Part shown: one piece after another, positions 26,621 to 34,895 of the stretch
How positions within the stretch are numbered: position 1 is the first letter of the stretch
Layout of the letters: each line of letters starts with the position of its first letter
Assembly (NCBI RefSeq): GCF_001723355.1
Contig: NZ_LPWE01000010.1
Span: 62,001 to 126,000, forward strand
Origin: Methyloceanibacter stevinii
GTDB taxonomy: Bacteria > Pseudomonadota > Alphaproteobacteria > Rhizobiales > Methyloligellaceae
Length of the DNA: 64,000 nucleotides
Direction of reading: 5' to 3'
Notes under the pieces: model-generated
Seen by the model: only the letters and a program-made list of their open reading frames with translations
The model's database searches: none
Told to the model about the DNA's origin: nothing
Program-made: the position numbers and the translations under genes

Positions 26621-27718
26621 TCAGCGCACGAGAATTGCGTGGTTGTCCCAGTGAAAACGCGTGGAATGGCGCGGGCCAAGGCCATCCGCGCTCCCCGACA
26701 GGAGCCAGCCCTCGCCGCTGGTGAGCAAGAATGTCGCACCCTTGTGGGTGGGCGCCAGTCCGCAGCCGTCGCGCAGACTGCACGATCCGAGAAAGCGCCG
26801 TGCTTTCGGGTCCCAATAGGTCACGACCCCACCCTTAGGCGCGGACGCCGCCACAACCGAACCATCCGAGTCGGCCGTCACCGACCCGATGTAGTTCTTC
26901 AGGGTGAGTTGAGTCTCTTCCGGCGCCGGGATGACGGTCAGCGTTTCGCCGCGCCGGTGGAAGCCCATCAGGGGCGGCAGGTCGTCGGCGTCGCCGCGAT
27001 ACTGGCAACCGAACGCCACAATGTCGTTGCCCGCGACCGTCAGGTGGCGAATGGACAGCCGGCGCAACTCATCGGGGTGACCGTGCCGCTCCAAGAGGTC
27101 TCCCGTCTCAAGGTCCACATAGGCGAGCGACGGTTCCATGTCGGCGAGGTTGAGTTCCTCGCGCCTGCGGTCCGGATGGGTCTGAATGCCGCCATTGGCC
27201 ACGACCAGCGTGCGTTTGTCGGAAAGCAGCGCCAGGTCGTGTGGACCGATACCGTGGCTCGGGATCTCTCCGATCTGGCGGTAGCCGGCTGCCGCATCGC
27301 GAACGCCGATCACGCCGCGCCCGCCGACGTAATCGTTTTCGGTGGTGTAGAGCAGCCTGCCGTCGGCGGAAAACACACCGTGCCCATAGAAGTGCCGGCC
27401 GGGACGTGCCGAGAACCAAACCGGCTTACGCGCATCCATAGGCACGGCAACGCCGAAACGGCCGGGACGACGCGCGAAGGCCACCCATTCCGAACCGCCC
27501 GGACGCAGCGCGACATCGTGGCCGCGGGCCGGCAGCAGGACTTCGCGAATGTCGCCGCGTTCGAGGTCGAACAACGCCGCAGAATAGTTGCCTTGATCGT
27601 CCTTGCGCGCGGCGGCGAAGCGCTCCGGCAACGACGCGGCGGCAAGTGGGCCGGGAACGGTCAACGCCAGTGAGGATCCGGCCAGCGCCGTGAGAAACGT
27701 GCGGCGGTTGAGTGTCAT
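26621..27718 (-). CDS. DUF1513 periplasmic protein (imelysin-cluster member)
   Basis: A 365-residue exported protein with a Tat-like signal (NRRTFLTALAGSSLAL). The body reads as a beta-propeller-like family, DUF1513/COG3490, with repeated strands such as GHDVALRPGGSEWVAFARRPG and GIGPHDLALLSDKRTLVVANGG. The family is nearly always found with imelysin and di-heme oxidoreductase genes. It starts two bases after the imelysin gene and is last in the riboswitch-controlled operon. Its biochemical role is unknown. Confidence 0.88.
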   Translation of the reverse strand: MTLNRRTFLTALAGSSLALTVPGPLAAASLPERFAAARKDDQGNYSAALFDLERGDIREVLLPARGHDVALRPGGSEWVAFARRPGRFGVAVPMDARKPVWFSARPGRHFYGHGVFSADGRLLYTTENDYVGGRGVIGVRDAAAGYRQIGEIPSHGIGPHDLALLSDKRTLVVANGGIQTHPDRRREELNLADMEPSLAYVDLETGDLLERHGHPDELRRLSIRHLTVAGNDIVAFGCQYRGDADDLPPLMGFHRRGETLTVIPAPEETQLTLKNYIGSVTADSDGSVVAASAPKGGVVTYWDPKARRFLGSCSLRDGCGLAPTHKGATFLLTSGEGWLLSGSADGLGPRHSTRFHWDNHAILVR

Positions 27719-27720
27719 GG

Positions 27721-28824
27721 CTAGTCTCCGTCACCTGCGTTGAAGCCGAAGCTGAGCCCCGCGCCCTCGGCAATCAATCCGGATGCGGTCGTGTTCGCGC
27801 TCTTCAAGCCGACACGCAGAGCCTCGAGCTTGCCGCGCTGTTCGGGGTCGGTGACCGCCTCGGCCACCGGCTCGGTTTCGGCGCCAAGAACGTCGATACT
27901 GTGCTTGAGGTCGAACACGATCGAGTCTTCGACGCCCGGCGACTGGTCGGCAACGATCGCCGCGAAGCCCCCATCGACGAACAGGGCCTGCACGGACTGA
28001 AGATTGACGGTCATGTTCGGAAAGGTCTGACCGCTCCGCCAGAATGCCGCGAGGCGCGGGCGGGCGCGCTCGGCGGACTCGCCCAGCACCCGGCCGAGCT
28101 TTTGGTCGCGCACGCGTTCGACGCCGCTGCTGAAGGCCTTGAAGAGTTCAAGCGTGACGTCTTTCGGCGCGCGGTAGAGCACGCCGTCGGGCTCGGGCTC
28201 CAGGAAGCTCTTGGTGAAGGGCGCATCGGGCGCCCACGCTTCGACAAGGTCCTTGGAGAGTTGCGCAATATTGTCAGTCACCGCCGCGGCGAAGCGGCAG
28301 CGAAACACCGCATCGTCACCGGGGCTCGCAAGTGCGTCGGATCCTTTGCCGTAAAGAAGGATTTCGAGGGCCGGCAAGCCCTGCAGCGCGACACTCTTCT
28401 TGGCAAGCGTCTCCACGCTCGTGACACTCTCGTCCTTGGCCAAGAGGACCCGCTGGACCTGCCGGTAGCCGAGGCCCTTCCGGTCCGGCCAGAAGAACAG
28501 CCTCTCGTAGCGATGCTCGTGATTGACCGGTCCGAACTGAAAGATCTCGACCGCGCTCCAGCCGTCGACGGCCTTAGCGAAGGCCGCACGGGCATCCGCG
28601 AGCGTCTTTTCGGAGGGATCTTTGCAAAGCACGGCGGTCGTGGCCGCCAAGGTCGCGGCATCGTTCGCGAATGCATCGTAGCCTGGCCGGATGACTTTCG
28701 TCAGCGCCGCCTCGGCAACGGCGGCATGATCCGCCTCTGCCTGCGCCGCGGGCCCGGCCGAACCGAGAGCAAGAGCCACAATCCCGAGGGACAGGGCCGA
28801 ATGGAGGAAACGGGTCATTGGCAT
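27721..28824 (-). CDS. Imelysin-family periplasmic protein (COG3489 type)
   Basis: A 367-residue exported helical protein of the imelysin/peptidase M75 family. The signal peptide ends near GPAAQAEA. The domain shows FGPVNHEHRYERLFFWPD and LPALEILLYGKG, the latter at the position of the family GxHxxE motif, here with Pro in place of the His. Family members are linked to iron or other metal handling and probably are not peptidases. The gene lies between the di-heme oxidoreductase and DUF1513 genes in one operon. Confidence 0.88.
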   Translation of the reverse strand: MPMTRFLHSALSLGIVALALGSAGPAAQAEADHAAVAEAALTKVIRPGYDAFANDAATLAATTAVLCKDPSEKTLADARAAFAKAVDGWSAVEIFQFGPVNHEHRYERLFFWPDRKGLGYRQVQRVLLAKDESVTSVETLAKKSVALQGLPALEILLYGKGSDALASPGDDAVFRCRFAAAVTDNIAQLSKDLVEAWAPDAPFTKSFLEPEPDGVLYRAPKDVTLELFKAFSSGVERVRDQKLGRVLGESAERARPRLAAFWRSGQTFPNMTVNLQSVQALFVDGGFAAIVADQSPGVEDSIVFDLKHSIDVLGAETEPVAEAVTDPEQRGKLEALRVGLKSANTTASGLIAEGAGLSFGFNAGDGD

Positions 28825-28872
28825 AGGTCTAACATCTGATTTCCAGCTTGGCGTGGGGCCGGGTTGTCGCGA

Positions 28873-30444
28873 CTAGAGCGAGTTCAAAAACGCCAGGAGG
28901 CGTTCCCGATCTTCCTTGTCCAGCGAGGCAAACCGGTCACGGGCCGCTTGGCCCTCACCGCCGTGCCACAGGATTGCCTCCGTGAGATTGCGGGCCCGGC
29001 CGTCATGAAGGAACTGGGTGTGGCCGCTCACCGTCTCGGTCAGACCGATACCCCAGAGCGGCGGCGTGCGCCATTCGCTCCCCGTCGCTTTGCCGTCCGG
29101 CCGATCGTCCGCCAGCCCCTCGCCCATGTCGTGGAGCAGCATGTCCGTGTACGGCCAGATGAGCTGGTTCGACAGGTGTGTCTGCTCGGGCACGTCGCCG
29201 GTCGTGAAGTTGGGCTGGTGACATTGAGCGCAGCCGACCTTGTAGAAAAGCTCTTTGCCCTTCAGCACCTCGGGCGCGTCCACGTTCCGGCGCGGCGGTA
29301 CCGCCAGGTTCTGCGTGTAGAACGTCATCAGATCGAATAGCTCGTCGCCCACTTCCACGTTCTGGTATTTGGGCGAGTTGCCGGACGGCGCGTCGATGCA
29401 CGATGTCTGCCTCTCGGTGCATTCGCCGGCGCCGCTCGGATGCAGCGTTGTCGAGATACCGATGTCACCGGAAAACGCATCGGCGTTCTGTTCGACGATG
29501 GTCGGCACATTCGCCTTCCAGCCGAAACGGCCCAGCATCTCCTTGTCATGCAGCTTGGACCACATCCGGTTCGGACGGCCCGAAATGCCGTCCCCGTTCG
29601 CATCATCCGGGTCGGCGTTGGCCTTGATCTGCTCTTCCGGAACCGCCTCGAGCAGTCCGAGCCCGATCATCGGCGGTGCGATGCGTGGACCCACCATCAC
29701 GTCCGGGCTGATGGGACCGTAGTTGAGTCCGGTCAGTTCGTAGTGCGGCGCGCGCAACGAGACTGTCTCGCCGTCCGCGAGCGAAACTTCTTTCTCCTCG
29801 TAGGACACTTTGACGGCGCCCTCGGCGTCGTGGCCCTGGATCGACATGTCCTGCAATTGCCCGCCGTAGACAGGGTCAGGCAGCACCGTCACCTTGCCGG
29901 AGGCGAGAAGCGCCTTCTCGTCATCGGTCTTGGCGGGCACCGAGAGCCGGAACAGGAGCGATGCCGTCGGCCCCGGCGTGTTCGAAGCGAGCGGAGGATG
30001 GCCGCGTCCGTCTTTGAGGTGGCAGTCCTGGCAGCCCCGCACATTGAACAGCGGTCCGAGACCGTCCGAGGCATCGGTGGAGGCGGGCGCCGAAACCCAA
30101 TGCCGCCGGAAAATGCTGTTCCCGATTTTGAAGTCGAGTTCCTTGCGGAAACCCATATTGCCGGATGATTGCGAAAACGCATTGGCGGTGTCGGTCGCGG
30201 CACGGGAGGTGGCGCCGCCGCCCGGCCGGTCTTCGCCCGGCTCGGCTTTTGTGAAATCGATTGCCGGCACGGGCACGTTGGGTGCCCCCGCTCCGCCAGC
30301 CGAGCGCGCGTACAATACGAGGCCCGCCAGCAGCGGTACGCAGGCCCCAACAAGAACGACACCGCCAAGCCATGCTTTCGCGTGACTTGACGGTGCTGTC
30401 GGGGTCGACTGACTCTGAGAAGGCGTGAACCGTACTGTGTTCAC
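28873..30444 (-). CDS. Di-heme oxidoreductase (putative peroxidase) family protein
   Basis: A 523-residue c-type cytochrome of the DHOR family (formerly DUF1111/COG3488). An N-terminal membrane anchor (GGVVLVGACVPLLAGLVLY) places it in the periplasm. Two CxxCH heme sites, GCQDCH near residue 135 and GCAQCH near 403, bracket the core. FLHDGRARNLTEAILWHGGEG near the C-terminus resembles MauG/cytochrome c peroxidases. It could change the redox state of a metal before uptake (inference). It starts 12 bases after the porin stop. Confidence 0.9.
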   Translation of the reverse strand: MNTVRFTPSQSQSTPTAPSSHAKAWLGGVVLVGACVPLLAGLVLYARSAGGAGAPNVPVPAIDFTKAEPGEDRPGGGATSRAATDTANAFSQSSGNMGFRKELDFKIGNSIFRRHWVSAPASTDASDGLGPLFNVRGCQDCHLKDGRGHPPLASNTPGPTASLLFRLSVPAKTDDEKALLASGKVTVLPDPVYGGQLQDMSIQGHDAEGAVKVSYEEKEVSLADGETVSLRAPHYELTGLNYGPISPDVMVGPRIAPPMIGLGLLEAVPEEQIKANADPDDANGDGISGRPNRMWSKLHDKEMLGRFGWKANVPTIVEQNADAFSGDIGISTTLHPSGAGECTERQTSCIDAPSGNSPKYQNVEVGDELFDLMTFYTQNLAVPPRRNVDAPEVLKGKELFYKVGCAQCHQPNFTTGDVPEQTHLSNQLIWPYTDMLLHDMGEGLADDRPDGKATGSEWRTPPLWGIGLTETVSGHTQFLHDGRARNLTEAILWHGGEGQAARDRFASLDKEDRERLLAFLNSL

Positions 30445-30456
30445 GCGCCCACCTTT

Positions 30457-31857
30457 CTAGAACGCGAACGTGCTGCGAGCGCCAATGACCGTTGCATTGT
30501 CGGCTTCTACGCCGCCATCCGGGTTCATGATGTACTGGAAGTCCGGCTGCAACGTCCAGCCGTCGATGACCTCCATGGTGTAAGCGATCTCGATCAAGGC
30601 CTCGTAGCCCTCGCCGGCCGGATCACCATTGGTAACGTTGAACGCCTGCGCCTGATCGGAAATGCTCGAATAGGCATAACCGATGGCCAGTGCGTCGTTC
30701 GGACGGCCCGGGATCATGCCCGTCATGGTCACACCCACGTCGAAGTAGAAATCGACATAGTTGCGATCGTCCGGCGCTCCGGCGAAGCGGGTGAAGAAGC
30801 CAAGGCCCTGCCCCTCTTCCGTACCCGGCGCGTGCCACAGAAGCTGATCCAAGATCACATAGAGAGCGTAATCGTTGTCCAGCGGCTTGCCGTCCTTGCC
30901 GGAGATCGCGATGGGGTTGCCGCCCACATCGGTATAGATGTGGTTGAAGTCCCCGAAGTGGTTCCAACCACCGACCTTGATCGAACCCGGTAGTTCACCG
31001 CCCGCCAGCGAATAGCTGTAGGCGCCTTCCGCCATCAAGAGCGTACGATCCCGCAGACCGAAGTCCAGACCGTCGTTGTTGCACACTTGCGGATCGTCCG
31101 CAGCGCAGTCCGGTGCCGGATTACCGTTGTAGACGCCGACCATCAGGCTGGTTTGCTCCGTCGGCGTAACAGCGACACGAACGCCGGGCGTAGCCAGCGG
31201 GTAGGCCGGGCCGCCGCCGGGGTTGTTTTCGGCCGCGATCGGCGCCCAACCCCACGTGCCGTTGATGAAGTAGCCACCGCCTTCGGCGAAGAAGAACTCA
31301 GCGTCCGCCGCGAGCTGACCGACCTTCACCGAAACCGTATCGTTGAACAGGAACTGCTCGAACCAGATCTCGAACAGGCGCGTCGCGTCATTCGCCTCGA
31401 AGCTGCTGACCGGCATCAGGGAGCCGATATTGGAGCCTGTGATGGAGTTGCCGTGAATCTGGTAGCCGTTGGCGTGGAAGCAAAGACCGTCCCACAGACC
31501 GAGCTTCTTCATATCGGCATTGACGTAGAGCTCGAGCACACCTTGATACTCGCCGCCCTCGTCGGTGCCGCCCCAATTGTAGAACGGCTCGGCGACGTAG
31601 GCGCCGCCAATGTCGATGCCCGTGTTGTTCAGCGACCCGGTCATGCCGCCCTTAGCGCCATCGATGAAGTCGAGCTTTCCGTTGGCCCCTGAGGCAAACT
31701 GGTCGAACGGATCTTCCGGGATCTCGCAGGCGGCGTTGGCCGCGGCCGGCGCAAGGACGAGTGCGAGCGCACCGAACGCCGCAGCGCGCAGCCCCTTGCC
31801 GATTTGAAAGCCTGTAGGAACGCGCAACGCGCGTGGAGAATTCTGTGTGTCGGACAT
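30457..31857 (-). CDS. OprB-type carbohydrate-selective porin family protein under cobalamin riboswitch control
   Basis: A 466-residue outer-membrane beta-barrel of the OprB family (PF04966). A signal peptide (FGALALVLAPAAANAACE) follows a 20-residue leader. The body is rich in Gly/Asn/aromatic strands (GVLELYVNADMKKLGLWDG, LFEIWFEQFLFNDTVSVKVGQL) and ends with the expected terminal Phe (ARSTFAF). The frame is open far upstream through the riboswitch, but the AGGGAAG ribosome site and signal peptide place the start at 31857. OprB homologues pass sugars in Pseudomonas. Substrate here is unknown, and the B12 riboswitch argues against a simple sugar role. Confidence 0.88.
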   Translation of the reverse strand: MSDTQNSPRALRVPTGFQIGKGLRAAAFGALALVLAPAAANAACEIPEDPFDQFASGANGKLDFIDGAKGGMTGSLNNTGIDIGGAYVAEPFYNWGGTDEGGEYQGVLELYVNADMKKLGLWDGLCFHANGYQIHGNSITGSNIGSLMPVSSFEANDATRLFEIWFEQFLFNDTVSVKVGQLAADAEFFFAEGGGYFINGTWGWAPIAAENNPGGGPAYPLATPGVRVAVTPTEQTSLMVGVYNGNPAPDCAADDPQVCNNDGLDFGLRDRTLLMAEGAYSYSLAGGELPGSIKVGGWNHFGDFNHIYTDVGGNPIAISGKDGKPLDNDYALYVILDQLLWHAPGTEEGQGLGFFTRFAGAPDDRNYVDFYFDVGVTMTGMIPGRPNDALAIGYAYSSISDQAQAFNVTNGDPAGEGYEALIEIAYTMEVIDGWTLQPDFQYIMNPDGGVEADNATVIGARSTFAF

Positions 31858-31863
31858 TCTTCC

Positions 31864-31907
31864 CTCCGAAGCCGAGTGACTAAAAAATCGCGTCAGCGCT
31901 TTCGGAG
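31864..31907 (-). promoter_or_regulatory. Hairpin that could sequester the porin Shine-Dalgarno
   Basis: On the - strand CTCCGAA (31901-31907) is complementary to TTCGGAG (31864-31870). The second copy overlaps the ribosome-binding site just before the porin ATG. This is the expected geometry of a translational expression platform for the upstream cobalamin riboswitch. A six-base hairpin GCGAAC/GTTCGC at 31935-31952 lies between the two and could be the alternative partner region. Confidence 0.5.
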
Positions 31908-31969
31908 AATTCCGGCGGAAGATCCCGACAATGTGCGAACACCCCCGTTCGCCCATCAGCCCTGTCACG

Positions 31970-32157
31970 GTCGAAGGCAGGTCTCCTGGCTCACGGTTCA
32001 TCGCTTTCTGCCCGACCTTCCCGGTTGCCCAGTGGTCACGATTGGCAGCGAGCTCACCGCTCACAGTTGCGGGGGCAGCCACGGCTTCGGCGCCATAGAG
32101 GCACACACCGTGTTCCCTTTTCATCCTCTCGGAACGAGTCTTCGAGGAACCTTCAAC
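31970..32157 (-). promoter_or_regulatory. Cobalamin (vitamin B12) riboswitch
   Basis: On the - strand the leader contains the diagnostic B12 box GCCAGGAGACCTGCC (31976-31990), the core segment GCTGCCCCCGCAACTGTGA (around 32063-32081) and GGGAACACGGTG upstream of it. The outer P1 stem can be traced: GTTGAAGG (32150-32157) pairs with CCTTCGAC (31970-31977). These elements occur in the order of known cobalamin aptamers. The aptamer is 113 bases upstream of the OprB-type porin start, so adenosylcobalamin or a related form should repress the porin operon. I found no cob, btu or metE gene in the window. Confidence 0.93.
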
Positions 32158-32163
32158 GCGTTC

Positions 32164-32192
32164 ACGTTGGAGTGTGGCCGAAATATTGTCAA
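32164..32192 (-). promoter_or_regulatory. Candidate promoter for the riboswitch transcript
   Basis: On the - strand a perfect TTGACA (32187-32192) is followed after 17 bases by CAACGT (32164-32169), a weak -10. The predicted start of transcription, about 32157, coincides with the 5' end of the riboswitch P1 stem, which supports the call. Confidence 0.4.
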
Positions 32193-32332
32193 TCGAGGCA
32201 CTTGCGTTGCGCCTCTCTATCGTGGCTTGCGTTGCAAAAGAGCAACGCCCCCTGTCCTGCTTCATTTGATCAGCCCCCCAAAGGCTCGGTTTTGGTCTCT
32301 TTGATCGTTCTCGCCGTTTGCGCCGTTGATCC

Positions 32333-32366
32333 GACTCGGAATGCGTAAAATACAACATTCCGAGTC
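32333..32366. repeat. 11-base perfect inverted repeat between imelysin gene and riboswitch
   Basis: GACTCGGAATG (32333-32343) and CATTCCGAGTC (32356-32366) form a perfect stem with a 12-base AT-rich loop, 73 bases after the imelysin stop. It probably ends the imelysin transcript, though the T-rich stretch is on the + side rather than the - side. An operator role is possible. Confidence 0.55.
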
Positions 32367-32438: not shown

Positions 32439-33716
32439 TTATTCAGCTCCCACCTTCTCAGGCGCATCGAGACTGTCCGATCCCTCGAACTCGATGGCTT
32501 TCAGATCCAGCGTTGCCACGGCCCGCTCGATCGCCTTGGTCTGAACGAGCAGAGCGTCGACCACGTCCTGGACGACCTTGTTGCCCTCGTCGTTCCCCTC
32601 ACCAATCATCTGATCGTAGTTCTCGGTGGTCAGAGCACGCAGATAGAGCGTGTTCATCGCGTCCATGGTGGCATCGAGCGCGGCCATCACTTCGGCGTCT
32701 ACTTTCGGATCCTTGGCCTTGACCACATCCGAGACGCTTGGGCCCGAAACGACGGAGCCGTCGGCACGGCGATAACGGCCCGTGTAGACATTGTGGATGC
32801 CGAGCGCGTCGAAGAAGTGTGCGGCATGGGTGTTGTCGGAGAAGCAGTCATGCTCCTCTTCCGGGTCGTGCACCATCAGGCCGAGCTTGATGCGTTCACC
32901 GGCCAGCTCGCCATAAGACAGGCTGCCGAGACCGGTCATGATGACGGTCAGACCGCCTTCATCGCCTGCATCCATGACGGCCTTGCGCGCATCGCCGCCT
33001 TCTTTCCACTGATCGGCCATCCACTGCAGATCGTCGATCAGGAGTTGGGTGACGGTGCTCAGGTACTCGGCGCGCCGTTGGCAATTGCCGTTGGAGCAAT
33101 TCTTCAGATCGTAGTCGGACGCGGGACGCTCGCCGGCGCCGGGCTCCGTGCCGTTCAAGTCTTGTCCCCAAAGCAGGAACTCGACCGCGTGATACCCCGT
33201 GGCCACGTTCGCCTCGACACCGCCCGCTTCCTGCAGCGTGTCGGAAAGCAGCGCCTTCGTGATCTTCGAGGTGTCGATCTTCTTGCCGCCGAGCGACAGG
33301 GAGACGTTCTTGATCACGTCGGCCACGTAGAGTTCGTTCTCGGGCGACTCGTCGCCATAAACCTCGGCGACGTAGTCGATCAGACCTTCGTCCAGCGGCC
33401 AGGCATTCACCTTGCCTTCCCAATCATCGACGATCGGGTTGCCGAAACGGTAGGCCTCGGTCTGCATGTAGGACGGGCGCGCGGCGATCCAGGCGGCGCG
33501 GGCGGCCCGCAGATTCGACTCCGTCGGGCTCTCCAGGAAGTCGTCGATCGCGAGCTGCATCGTCCTGGCAGTCTCAAGCGAATCTTCGTATCCGGCCTGC
33601 GCGATGTCGGCGTAGTTCTTCAAAACGTCCTTAGGGCTATCGGCCAGCGCGGGCGAGACGTAACAGCCAAACGCCAGGACAGCCGCCGGCACCATCGTCT
33701 TTAGTCCTCGAAACAT
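32439..33716 (-). CDS. Imelysin-family periplasmic protein (IrpA/COG3487 type)
   Basis: A 425-residue exported protein of the imelysin family. The signal peptide ends PALADS. The family motif GxHxxE is present as GYHAVEFLLWGQD near residue 180, followed by YRRAD and LSYGELAGERIKL elements. Start at 33716 is supported by AGAGGGAG; the frame is open to 33779 without homology. It is the first gene of the imelysin, di-heme oxidoreductase, imelysin, DUF1513 set, but here a hairpin, a riboswitch and a porin gene separate it from the rest. Likely binds iron or another transition metal in the periplasm. Confidence 0.9.
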   Translation of the reverse strand: MFRGLKTMVPAAVLAFGCYVSPALADSPKDVLKNYADIAQAGYEDSLETARTMQLAIDDFLESPTESNLRAARAAWIAARPSYMQTEAYRFGNPIVDDWEGKVNAWPLDEGLIDYVAEVYGDESPENELYVADVIKNVSLSLGGKKIDTSKITKALLSDTLQEAGGVEANVATGYHAVEFLLWGQDLNGTEPGAGERPASDYDLKNCSNGNCQRRAEYLSTVTQLLIDDLQWMADQWKEGGDARKAVMDAGDEGGLTVIMTGLGSLSYGELAGERIKLGLMVHDPEEEHDCFSDNTHAAHFFDALGIHNVYTGRYRRADGSVVSGPSVSDVVKAKDPKVDAEVMAALDATMDAMNTLYLRALTTENYDQMIGEGNDEGNKVVQDVVDALLVQTKAIERAVATLDLKAIEFEGSDSLDAPEKVGAE

Positions 33717-33941
33717 CGAACTCCCTCTCAAGTTGCTACGACTCGCCGGTCGTTTTCTATCTAAAATCACCAATTTCAATCGCTTTTGTCTATGACAAGG
33801 GCGAAAGATGCGACGGCCCAGCGGCCAGGGACCGTGGGCCGCCGCAAGGCTGAGATGAGGAAGCGTTTCGGCTCGGGCTGAAACACTTCAGACACTCGGG
33901 CTGGGCGGCCGAATGTCTTGCCAGAACCCTACGGGGGGCCC

Positions 33942-33973
33942 TATCATGAATGAAGTGAACAGTTTTCATGATA
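33942..33973. promoter_or_regulatory. Palindromic operator upstream of the LysR-type regulator
   Basis: A perfect nine-base inverted repeat TATCATGAA (33942-33950) / TTCATGATA (33965-33973) with a 14-base spacer ends 13 bases before the regulator's ATG. Position and symmetry fit autoregulation by the LysR protein. It also lies in the spacer shared with the divergent imelysin gene. Confidence 0.6.
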
Positions 33974-33986
33974 ATAGTTGAATGAT

Positions 33987-34895
33987 ATGCATCTTAAGGA
34001 AGTCGACGCCAATCTGCTCGTGACGCTCGATGCACTGCTGGTCGACGCCAGCGTCACACGTGCCGCCGAACGGCTCGGGCGCAGCGCCTCCGCCATCAGC
34101 CATGCCTTGGCTAAGTTGCGGGAATTGTTTGACGATGAGCTTTTCGTGCGCGCCGGGCAGAGGCTTGTTCCAACCGCTCGGGCTCAGGAACTCGCGCCGA
34201 CGGTCCACGTGATCCTCGCGGGCATGGAGAGCCTGCTTCGTCCCAACAAGCCGTTCGACCCGTCACTGACGATGCGCGCGTTTGCCGCAGCCTCCAGCGA
34301 GGCCGGTGAATTGATCCTCATCGAGCCCCTGCGCAAGCGCTTGCAGGAGGGCGCGCCGAGCGTCCGGGTCGATTGGACGTCGTCCAACATGGAGTCGATC
34401 ATCGACGAGTTGCGCAACGCGCGCTGCCACTTCGTCATCGACATCATGGGCGAGAGCGCCGAGGCGCCGGACGTGCGCGCCGCCAAGCTTTTCGACGACG
34501 AACTGGCAACCCTGGCGCGGCCGGGGCACCCGTTCTCCAAGCGGCGCCCGAACGGCGAAGCCTTCGCCGCCGCGGAGCATGTGGCCGTCCACTCCCTCCC
34601 GGGGTTCCAGGGGCTCGCAGACCGGCTGGCGCAGGCGGGGCACGACATCCGGCGAACGTCGCAGGTCTCCTCCGCGCTTGTGGGCGTCATGGCCACGCTC
34701 AACAGCGATGCCCTGCTCACGCTCCCGGCCTCGCTCGCGAGCCTGCTGGAGCGTCAGTTCGGCCTCTCGCGGATCGCACAACCCATTGAACCTGTGACCT
34801 TTCCGGTGCGGCTCCTGTGGCACACAAGCTATGACCGGGACGAGTGTCATCAATGGCTGCGCGGCGAGTTCTCGCTCCTCGCCCAGGAACTCTAA
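33987..34895 (+). CDS. LysR-family transcriptional regulator
   Basis: A 302-residue DNA-binding regulator. The N-terminal winged helix-turn-helix (residues 8-65) reads VTRAAERLGRSASAISHALAKLRELFDDELFVR. The C-terminal periplasmic-binding-like effector domain starts near residue 90. It resembles the NodD/LeuO-like subgroup in the LRELFDDELFVRAGQRLVPT stretch. ATG at 33987 is preferred over TTG at 33978. It is divergent from the imelysin gene, which makes that cluster a candidate target, but no inducer can be inferred. Confidence 0.9.
   Translation: MHLKEVDANLLVTLDALLVDASVTRAAERLGRSASAISHALAKLRELFDDELFVRAGQRLVPTARAQELAPTVHVILAGMESLLRPNKPFDPSLTMRAFAAASSEAGELILIEPLRKRLQEGAPSVRVDWTSSNMESIIDELRNARCHFVIDIMGESAEAPDVRAAKLFDDELATLARPGHPFSKRRPNGEAFAAAEHVAVHSLPGFQGLADRLAQAGHDIRRTSQVSSALVGVMATLNSDALLTLPASLASLLERQFGLSRIAQPIEPVTFPVRLLWHTSYDRDECHQWLRGEFSLLAQEL

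Follow-up and report, generated by a model that had tools for sequence, protein, structure and literature searches.

The 64,000-nucleotide stretch of the Methyloceanibacter stevinii genome analysed here (the window) carries on its minus strand a cobalamin riboswitch that directly precedes the gene of an OprB-family porin and lies inside an imelysin operon. We propose that this riboswitch, responding to adenosylcobalamin, controls the porin within the standing operon in the service of cobalt entry, a reading which, taken as a whole, we give about an even chance. The observations from which it derives are the riboswitch, the pairing of its platform, its place in a B12 regulon, its recurrent linkage to porins and its presence as an allelic difference between close species.

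The riboswitch, its platform and the interrupted operon

Below, G000 denotes the M. stevinii genome itself, other G numbers the compared genomes and L numbers loci taken from genomes. The elements that carry the argument are these:

32187..32192, minus strand: TTGACA, probable -35 element of a switch promoter, 24 nt 5' of the aptamer
31959..32168, minus strand: cobalamin riboswitch aptamer (RF00174), 120.3 bits, full length
31927..31961, minus strand: P13-like hairpin with a G-rich loop, predicted by folding and comparison of seven leaders
31864..31907, minus strand: second hairpin, covering the porin Shine-Dalgarno sequence, predicted by folding
30457..31857, minus strand: OprB-family porin of 466 amino acids, isoelectric point (pI) 4.1; PF04966, 269.8 bits, profile positions 2-372 of 372

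In an Rfam covariance search the aptamer is matched at 32168-31959 over the full length of the model (1-189) with 120.3 bits (E 1.3e-29), the gathering threshold of RF00174 being 31.5 bits, and it is the single Rfam match at gathering thresholds in the 64-kb window. The first-pass annotation of this DNA had claimed a full cobalamin aptamer, and the covariance check bears this out; furthermore the B12 box that it placed at 31976-31990 agrees exactly with GCCAGGAGACCTGCC at 31990-31976, and the core that it put at about 32063-32081 is indeed present, as GTGGCTGCCCCCGCAACTG, but at 32082-32064, an offset of one base. The aptamer is presumably of class I, the adenosylcobalamin type. TTGAC is located 20-24 nt 5' of 15 of the 17 aptamers examined, the M. 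stevinii porin switch among them, so that the switch probably comes with a promoter of its own.

The porin starts at ATG 31857 with GGAGGG in front, and helix pairing between the aptamer and this ATG points to an expression platform of the translation type. Among the seven leaders 96.9% of cells in the P13-like hairpin are paired and three of its pairs are changed on both sides, and, to judge from known structures, its G-rich loop probably forms a kissing interaction with the CCCCC loop in the core of the aptamer. The base of the second hairpin, CTCCGAA (31907-31901) with TTCGGAG (31870-31864), masks the Shine-Dalgarno sequence GGAGGG (31867-31862); this base helix is paired in 95.9% of cells and the upper helix in 87.1%, with two pairs changed on both sides in the latter. 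Over all platform helices 93.5% of cells are paired versus 36-41% with the partner slid, a score favoured by the derivation of the structure from one of the seven leaders compared, and five pairs are changed on both sides versus 1.6 in shuffles. The platform-only fold energy is not outstanding (z -1.30).

The first-pass annotation had described four minus-strand genes behind the switch, spaced by 12, 48 and 2 nt, and indeed the gene coordinates give these gaps and Pfam identifies the genes as OprB, DHOR, imelysin and DUF1513. A further gene on the same strand, Imel1, is found directly 5' of the switch and was absent from that annotation. The genes that flank the porin are:

32439..33779, minus strand: Imel1, imelysin of the IrpA/ICMP type, motif GxHxxE present as GYHAVE; PF09375 (Peptidase_M75), 276 bits
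28873..30444, minus strand: DHOR, di-heme oxidoreductase with two CxxCH motifs (residues 138 and 405); PF06537, 336 bits
27721..28824, minus strand: Imel2, imelysin of the IPPA type, with GLPALE (GxxxxE, the motif without its His); PF09375, 167.4 bits
26621..27718, minus strand: DUF1513 protein; PF07433, 366.3 bits

Since an IrpA/ICMP imelysin, the usual opening gene of such operons, is found just upstream, the switch, to judge from gene order, interrupts an Imel1-porin-DHOR-Imel2-DUF1513 operon and thus splits a known operon. Two M75 proteins, DHOR and DUF1513 follow each other in order on one strand, as in the imelysin operon (COG3487-3490), and Imel1 and Imel2 are the only M75 matches genome-wide. 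Imel1 matches PDB entry 7xrx ('Insulin-cleaving metalloproteinase outer membrane protein') with 385.7 bits and the porin matches the Porin B structure 4gf4 (phmmer, E 3.3e-18); DHOR has no sequence match in the PDB, and an NCBIfam scan yields no name above cut-off for any of the five proteins of the operon. The N-terminus of the DUF1513 protein, RRTFL, we take to be twin-arginine-like.

Recurrence of switched porins and probable turnover of the switch allele

In the family of M. stevinii DHOR is found in 19 of 30 genomes and a cobalamin switch in 29. A switch precedes the porin-DHOR pair in four of the 19 (G000, G006, G008 and G009) and is absent there in 11, the site being cut by contig ends in the remaining four (G007, G013, G015 and G022). 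G013 was not counted as a further switched operon, the contig edge holding only a 3' part of the leader and L017 giving no Rfam match. Outside the family 126 DHOR genomes were scanned, namely the 88 best-scoring of 136 in the order and 38 of 45 elsewhere in the class, part of them with stricter filters and with matches partly listed, and contig ends may hide some switches; among the matches listed, the 16 kb 5' of DHOR hold no same-strand switch in any of the 126, the nearest lying at 16.4 kb (G345).

The picture is different for the porin. Ten of the 75 family switches are followed on the same strand, at no more than 1.2 kb, by an OprB-family match, versus 0.036 expected, and these cases fall in three genera. 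They comprise the four operons in G000, G006, G008 and G009, a porin in G016 (where a LysR gene is the neighbour, Imel1 is lacking and the contig stops behind the porin), the second porins of G004, G005 and G009, and OprB relatives with lower scores in G002 and G003 (39.8 and 56.6 bits); the ten are not all independent of each other but represent at least three contexts. A further switch-porin pair is present in L065, from another Hyphomicrobiaceae metagenome-assembled genome, and it should also be mentioned that OprB genes without a switch are common, including those at four more distant loci (L058, L062-L064). The porin, not the imelysin, is the recurrent switch partner. The genome search for switches beside OprB-imelysin-DHOR sets that the first-pass annotation had proposed thus finds the porin linkage to recur, whereas the listed matches hold no linkage to DHOR outside the family. 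Six switched porins are acidic (pI 4.1-4.8, with G002 left out as misframed and the switch-less G004 counted apart), a property that fits cations.

Some of these and related loci have features of their own. In G005 (M. marginalis; L061 807-9221) the switch-headed OprB gene has Cation_efflux and RND pump genes as neighbours, so that metal entry and efflux are oddly combined. The second switch-headed OprB genes of G004 (L031 6869-8571) and G009 (L033) are split into two frames identically, and in L031 the broken gene is followed by TonB receptor, outer-membrane-efflux and membrane-fusion genes. A leader much like the porin leader is found in G016 before a Peripla_BP_2 (BtuF-like) gene (L036 8262-9433, minus strand), where, by eye, it appears to retain a short relic of the porin start. 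In G017 a switch precedes the gene of an 810-residue TonB receptor (L038 7339-10253) that is about 30% like the BtuB-like receptor of the regulon over part of its length, and is a candidate cobalt or cobamide receptor.

When G000 and G004 are compared, identity per 100 bases is 89-98% on both flanks near the switch site; in between, from shortly after the stop codon of Imel1 to around porin codon 85, it drops to 53-58% and gaps appear. The allele delimited in this way, of about 0.8 kb, comprises the TTGACA promoter, the aptamer, the platform and the 5' end of the porin with its signal peptide. G004 and G017 have a plain porin start with no switch in front of it, and in the Imel1 and DHOR trees they fall among the switched genomes, some forks being open. 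From the block of low identity and this placement we infer that the switch allele was lost, gained or exchanged on more than one occasion.

A change so confined also lends itself to another explanation, possible though on the unlikely side, namely that the porin is the sole meaningful B12 target and that DHOR, Imel2 and DUF1513 still serve iron, being switched merely by way of the recombined 5' allele of the porin. This is consistent with the confinement of the G000/G004 identity drop to the stretch just described, with switched OprB-family porins that have no imelysin or DHOR in the fetched stretch (L031, L041/L061, L065, L047 and L049), and with the count of zero listed upstream switches among the 126 outside genomes. 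However, the switched allele and the operon have stayed together in G000/G009, G006 and G008, and the flanking DNA of G006 and G008 is mostly 70-94% identical to that of G000, which argues against it.

In front of the switch there is furthermore what looks like the porin start of the plain operon:

32263..32265, minus strand: old plain-operon porin start codon, behind TTTGGGGGGCTGA, now 5' of the switch

This ATG is in frame with, and 408 nt before, ATG 31857, and its context resembles the porin start of the switch-less G004, G017, G011, G019 and G005; such a plain start context (GGGGGGCTGA-like, then ATG) has persisted 5' of the switch in G000, G009, G006 and G008. An open frame of 633 codons (30457-32358, minus strand) begins before the old start and crosses the whole riboswitch into the porin, and the leader might therefore be thought to have two inputs, messages from the Imel1 promoter being translated from the old ATG through the aptamer into the porin and so bypassing the B12 block. 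Between the old ATG and that of the porin the frame is indeed open over exactly 408 nt in G000, G006 and G008 and over 372 nt in G009, it is not open in the free-standing leader of G016, and any fully open frame occurs in only two of 24 other aptamers compared. Nonetheless we consider such a leader very improbable, since the frame stays open by chance with P 0.13-0.39 (same sites) or 0.07-0.20 (random sites) when substitutions are simulated, the differences have no general third-position excess in the through-aptamer frame, and the N-terminal extension would bury the signal peptide of the porin; in-frame read-through was rejected, as chance suffices and neither the simulation nor the codon-position counts gave significant support. 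A hairpin seen by eye after the old start codon in several species is likewise not claimed, the fold of 32170-32330 being not unusual (z -0.42).

On the far side of Imel1 the operon adjoins a divergent gene:

33978..34895, plus strand: LysR-type regulator; PF00126/PF03466

By synteny this gene adjoins the operon in those members of the genus that have the stretch assembled. Between it and Imel1 an inverted repeat, TATCATGA ... TCATGATA, is found at 33940-33975, at the LysR start; it is exact in G009 and imperfect in G004 and G006, and is possibly a LysR operator.

Cobalt, iron or corrinoid

The genome of M. stevinii contains six strong cobalamin switches and one marginal match of 31.8 bits. 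Besides the porin operon, the targets of the strong switches are:

Target 1: DUF4198-CbiM-CbiQ-ABC-NicO genes
Target 2: MotA_ExbB-ExbD-TonB
Target 3: TonB receptor-Peripla_BP_2-FecCD-ABC unit, BtuBFCD-like, its presumed substrate following from this likeness
Target 4: HupE with CobO and CobQ
Target 5: CobW-CobN and further cob genes

The porin operon thus shares its switch family with cobalt, Btu-like and cob genes. The marginal match (G000 C2:71717) was set aside, no B12 gene having been recognised by eye among the surrounding open reading frames, where no family search was made. The CobN-type matches in L010 10687-14023 of the same genome fall on two adjacent open reading frames of 436 and 661 codons and not on one, perhaps by a frameshift or a split of the gene. 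The genome furthermore has four MM_CoA_mutase matches, and in M. caenitepidi the ethylmalonyl-CoA pathway is present and isocitrate lyase absent (PMC6417678, in part; the words 'in part' here and below mark papers cited from passages). A demand for B12 is therefore likely, and B12 should matter for growth on methanol.

In the mechanism that we propose, where the direction of the response, the ligand class, the identity of the metal and the role of the downstream genes are all inferred, plentiful adenosylcobalamin would close the aptamer, the kissing loop would form and the ribosome site of the porin would be held in the hairpin. When adenosylcobalamin is scarce the porin would be made, and translation and stability of the message with DHOR, Imel2 and DUF1513 would improve. 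Co(II) would then cross the outer membrane faster by way of the porin, the imelysin/di-heme pair, ancestrally an iron device, would buffer the metal or hand it on in the periplasm, and CbiMQO/HupE/NicO of the same regulon would carry Co(II) inward for B12 synthesis. A stronger version, in which the whole downstream set (OprB, DHOR, Imel2 and DUF1513) is in these Methyloceanibacter species a dedicated cobalt acquisition device under adenosylcobalamin control, with a passive pore favouring cobalt and a periplasmic redox and binding stage, seems to us doubtful and rather unlikely.

Several points weigh against cobalt entry as the purpose of the switch. Ordinary porins let Co(II) through, and a dedicated pore may therefore be unneeded. 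The seven pairs over the Shine-Dalgarno sequence have no changes on both sides among the seven sequences, which vary too little there to tell, and the three genes behind the porin, DHOR, Imel2 and DUF1513, may hardly respond to a switch of the translation type. The switch-less G004 and G017 retain Imel1-porin-DHOR, and B12 control is therefore dispensable; likewise the switch-less porin of G004 is equally acidic (pI 4.06), so that acidity and B12 control are not coupled. In G006, and likewise at the second loci of G004 and G009, assembly error or decay has left the switched porin frameshifted or split. Finally, ferritin-family genes are found in or beside the imelysin operons of other Hyphomicrobiales (L058 4125-4616 and L081 6939-7424), which fits an operon ancestor of the iron type, and homologues of the imelysin operon are up under iron limitation or Fur-regulated (PMC3143127, PMC7567364, both in part).

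Among 28 other DHOR loci, 17 have no open reading frame of at least 150 codons between Imel1 and DHOR and nine have one; L058 has an OprB gene (47%) in this place and L026 shows no Imel1. Pfam gives no family for six secreted-looking proteins encoded between the two genes (L023, L024, L025, L074, L079 and L085), and the corresponding protein of L081 is of the ferritin family; L080 and L082 hold the other two of the nine. That the operon set imports iron, the B12 switch tying iron supply to B12 status, is nevertheless unlikely in our view. Such a role would agree with the ferritin-family genes of L058 and L081, with the Fur regulation of PA4370-PA4373 and the link of imelysin operons to EfeB-like peroxidases (PMC3143127, in part), and with a Geobacter OprB-family porin under a Fur box with feoAB (PMC545781, in part), but the remaining strong switches stand before genes for cobalt, for TonB uptake and for making B12. 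Moreover, the Irr-type pattern TTTAGAAN3TTCTAAA has no match with up to three mismatches in the window and TGA-N9-TCA is absent from the Imel1 promoter, Fur and other iron boxes not having been tried. The genome has no match to the FTR1 iron permease, Feo not having been searched. For the imelysin EfeM, binding of Cu, Zn and Fe is reported in a paper whose text nowhere contains the words cobalt or Co2+ (PMC9174327).

The first-pass annotation had suggested that the set may import cobalt or a corrinoid. The B12 control and the link to cobalt or B12 supply find support in the strong switch, the regulon and the recurrent porins. OprB pores let through solutes the size of sugars, cobamides of 1.3 kDa being too large for them, and we know of no corrinoid-binding imelysin. 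Import of a corrinoid or B12 precursor, although in keeping with the B12 switch and with the BtuBFCD-type TonB receptor-ABC importer in the same regulon, is thus scarcely credible, because cobalamin is too large for the pore and the regulon already has a BtuB-like system. The extension to the whole DHOR-imelysin-DUF1513 set lacks support in that form, as relatives' sets have no listed switch, ferritin genes are neighbours and homologues are iron-regulated (PMC3143127, in part).

Related systems and significance

The leader resembles other RF00174 leaders (btuB, cbiMNQO, cob) in its full aptamer, B12 box, P13-like hairpin, hidden Shine-Dalgarno sequence and a TTGAC promoter as in most sister leaders, but what it precedes is an OprB porin gene with DHOR, imelysin and DUF1513 behind it, and it lies inside a standing operon as an allelic difference between close species. 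The DUF1513 gene presumably corresponds to PA4373, the fourth gene of Pseudomonas PA4370-PA4373. This Pseudomonas operon (ICMP, EfeB-like di-heme protein, IPPA-type imelysin; PMC3143127, in part) has the same order of Imel1, DHOR and Imel2, whereas in M. stevinii a porin stands between Imel1 and DHOR and a B12 switch precedes the distal genes. The Fur-boxed Geobacter OprB with feoAB (PMC545781, in part) and, in the part of the literature available to us, cyanobacterial SLH/OprB porins are likewise of the OprB family and suspected of metal entry, the M. stevinii porin differing in its cobalamin control. In Novosphingobium, too, a B12 switch heads a possible route for cobalt through the outer membrane, in a unit of TonB receptor, NiCoT and cobW (PMC7689651, in part), although that route is a TonB receptor and the one in M. 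stevinii a passive porin. In Anabaena the operon alr4027-btuB2, induced by cobalt starvation, follows a cobalamin switch and encodes a protein that putatively binds metal together with an outer-membrane transporter; the proteins are others, however, and the part described there includes no porin or imelysin (PMC10878165, in part). In the openly licensed literature, as far as it was available, nothing connects imelysin, DHOR or OprB to a cobalamin riboswitch, mentions of imelysin (in Leptospira work) or of OprB beside such a riboswitch not amounting to a connection, and no co-mention of imelysin and cobalt was found in that literature. The riboswitch itself is of a known kind, and what is new is the porin-headed target, the place inside an operon and the recurrent porin linkage.

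The passage of cobalt across the outer membrane is unsettled, no cobalt-specific outer-membrane receptor being confirmed and porins being named as a route in a review (PMC7689651, in part), and recurrent B12 switches on OprB porins provide concrete candidates. The closely similar operons with and without the switch (G000/G009 versus G004) are a natural experiment on the effect of B12 control, and they suggest that control by a riboswitch can pass from one species to another as an allelic 5' gene end. Were the whole set indeed devoted to cobalt, it would combine porin-based cobalt entry with an imelysin/di-heme device that an exchanged riboswitch allele had diverted from iron towards cobalt. 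In some methanol-using bacteria, a shortage of B12 probably opens a porin route, most likely for cobalt.

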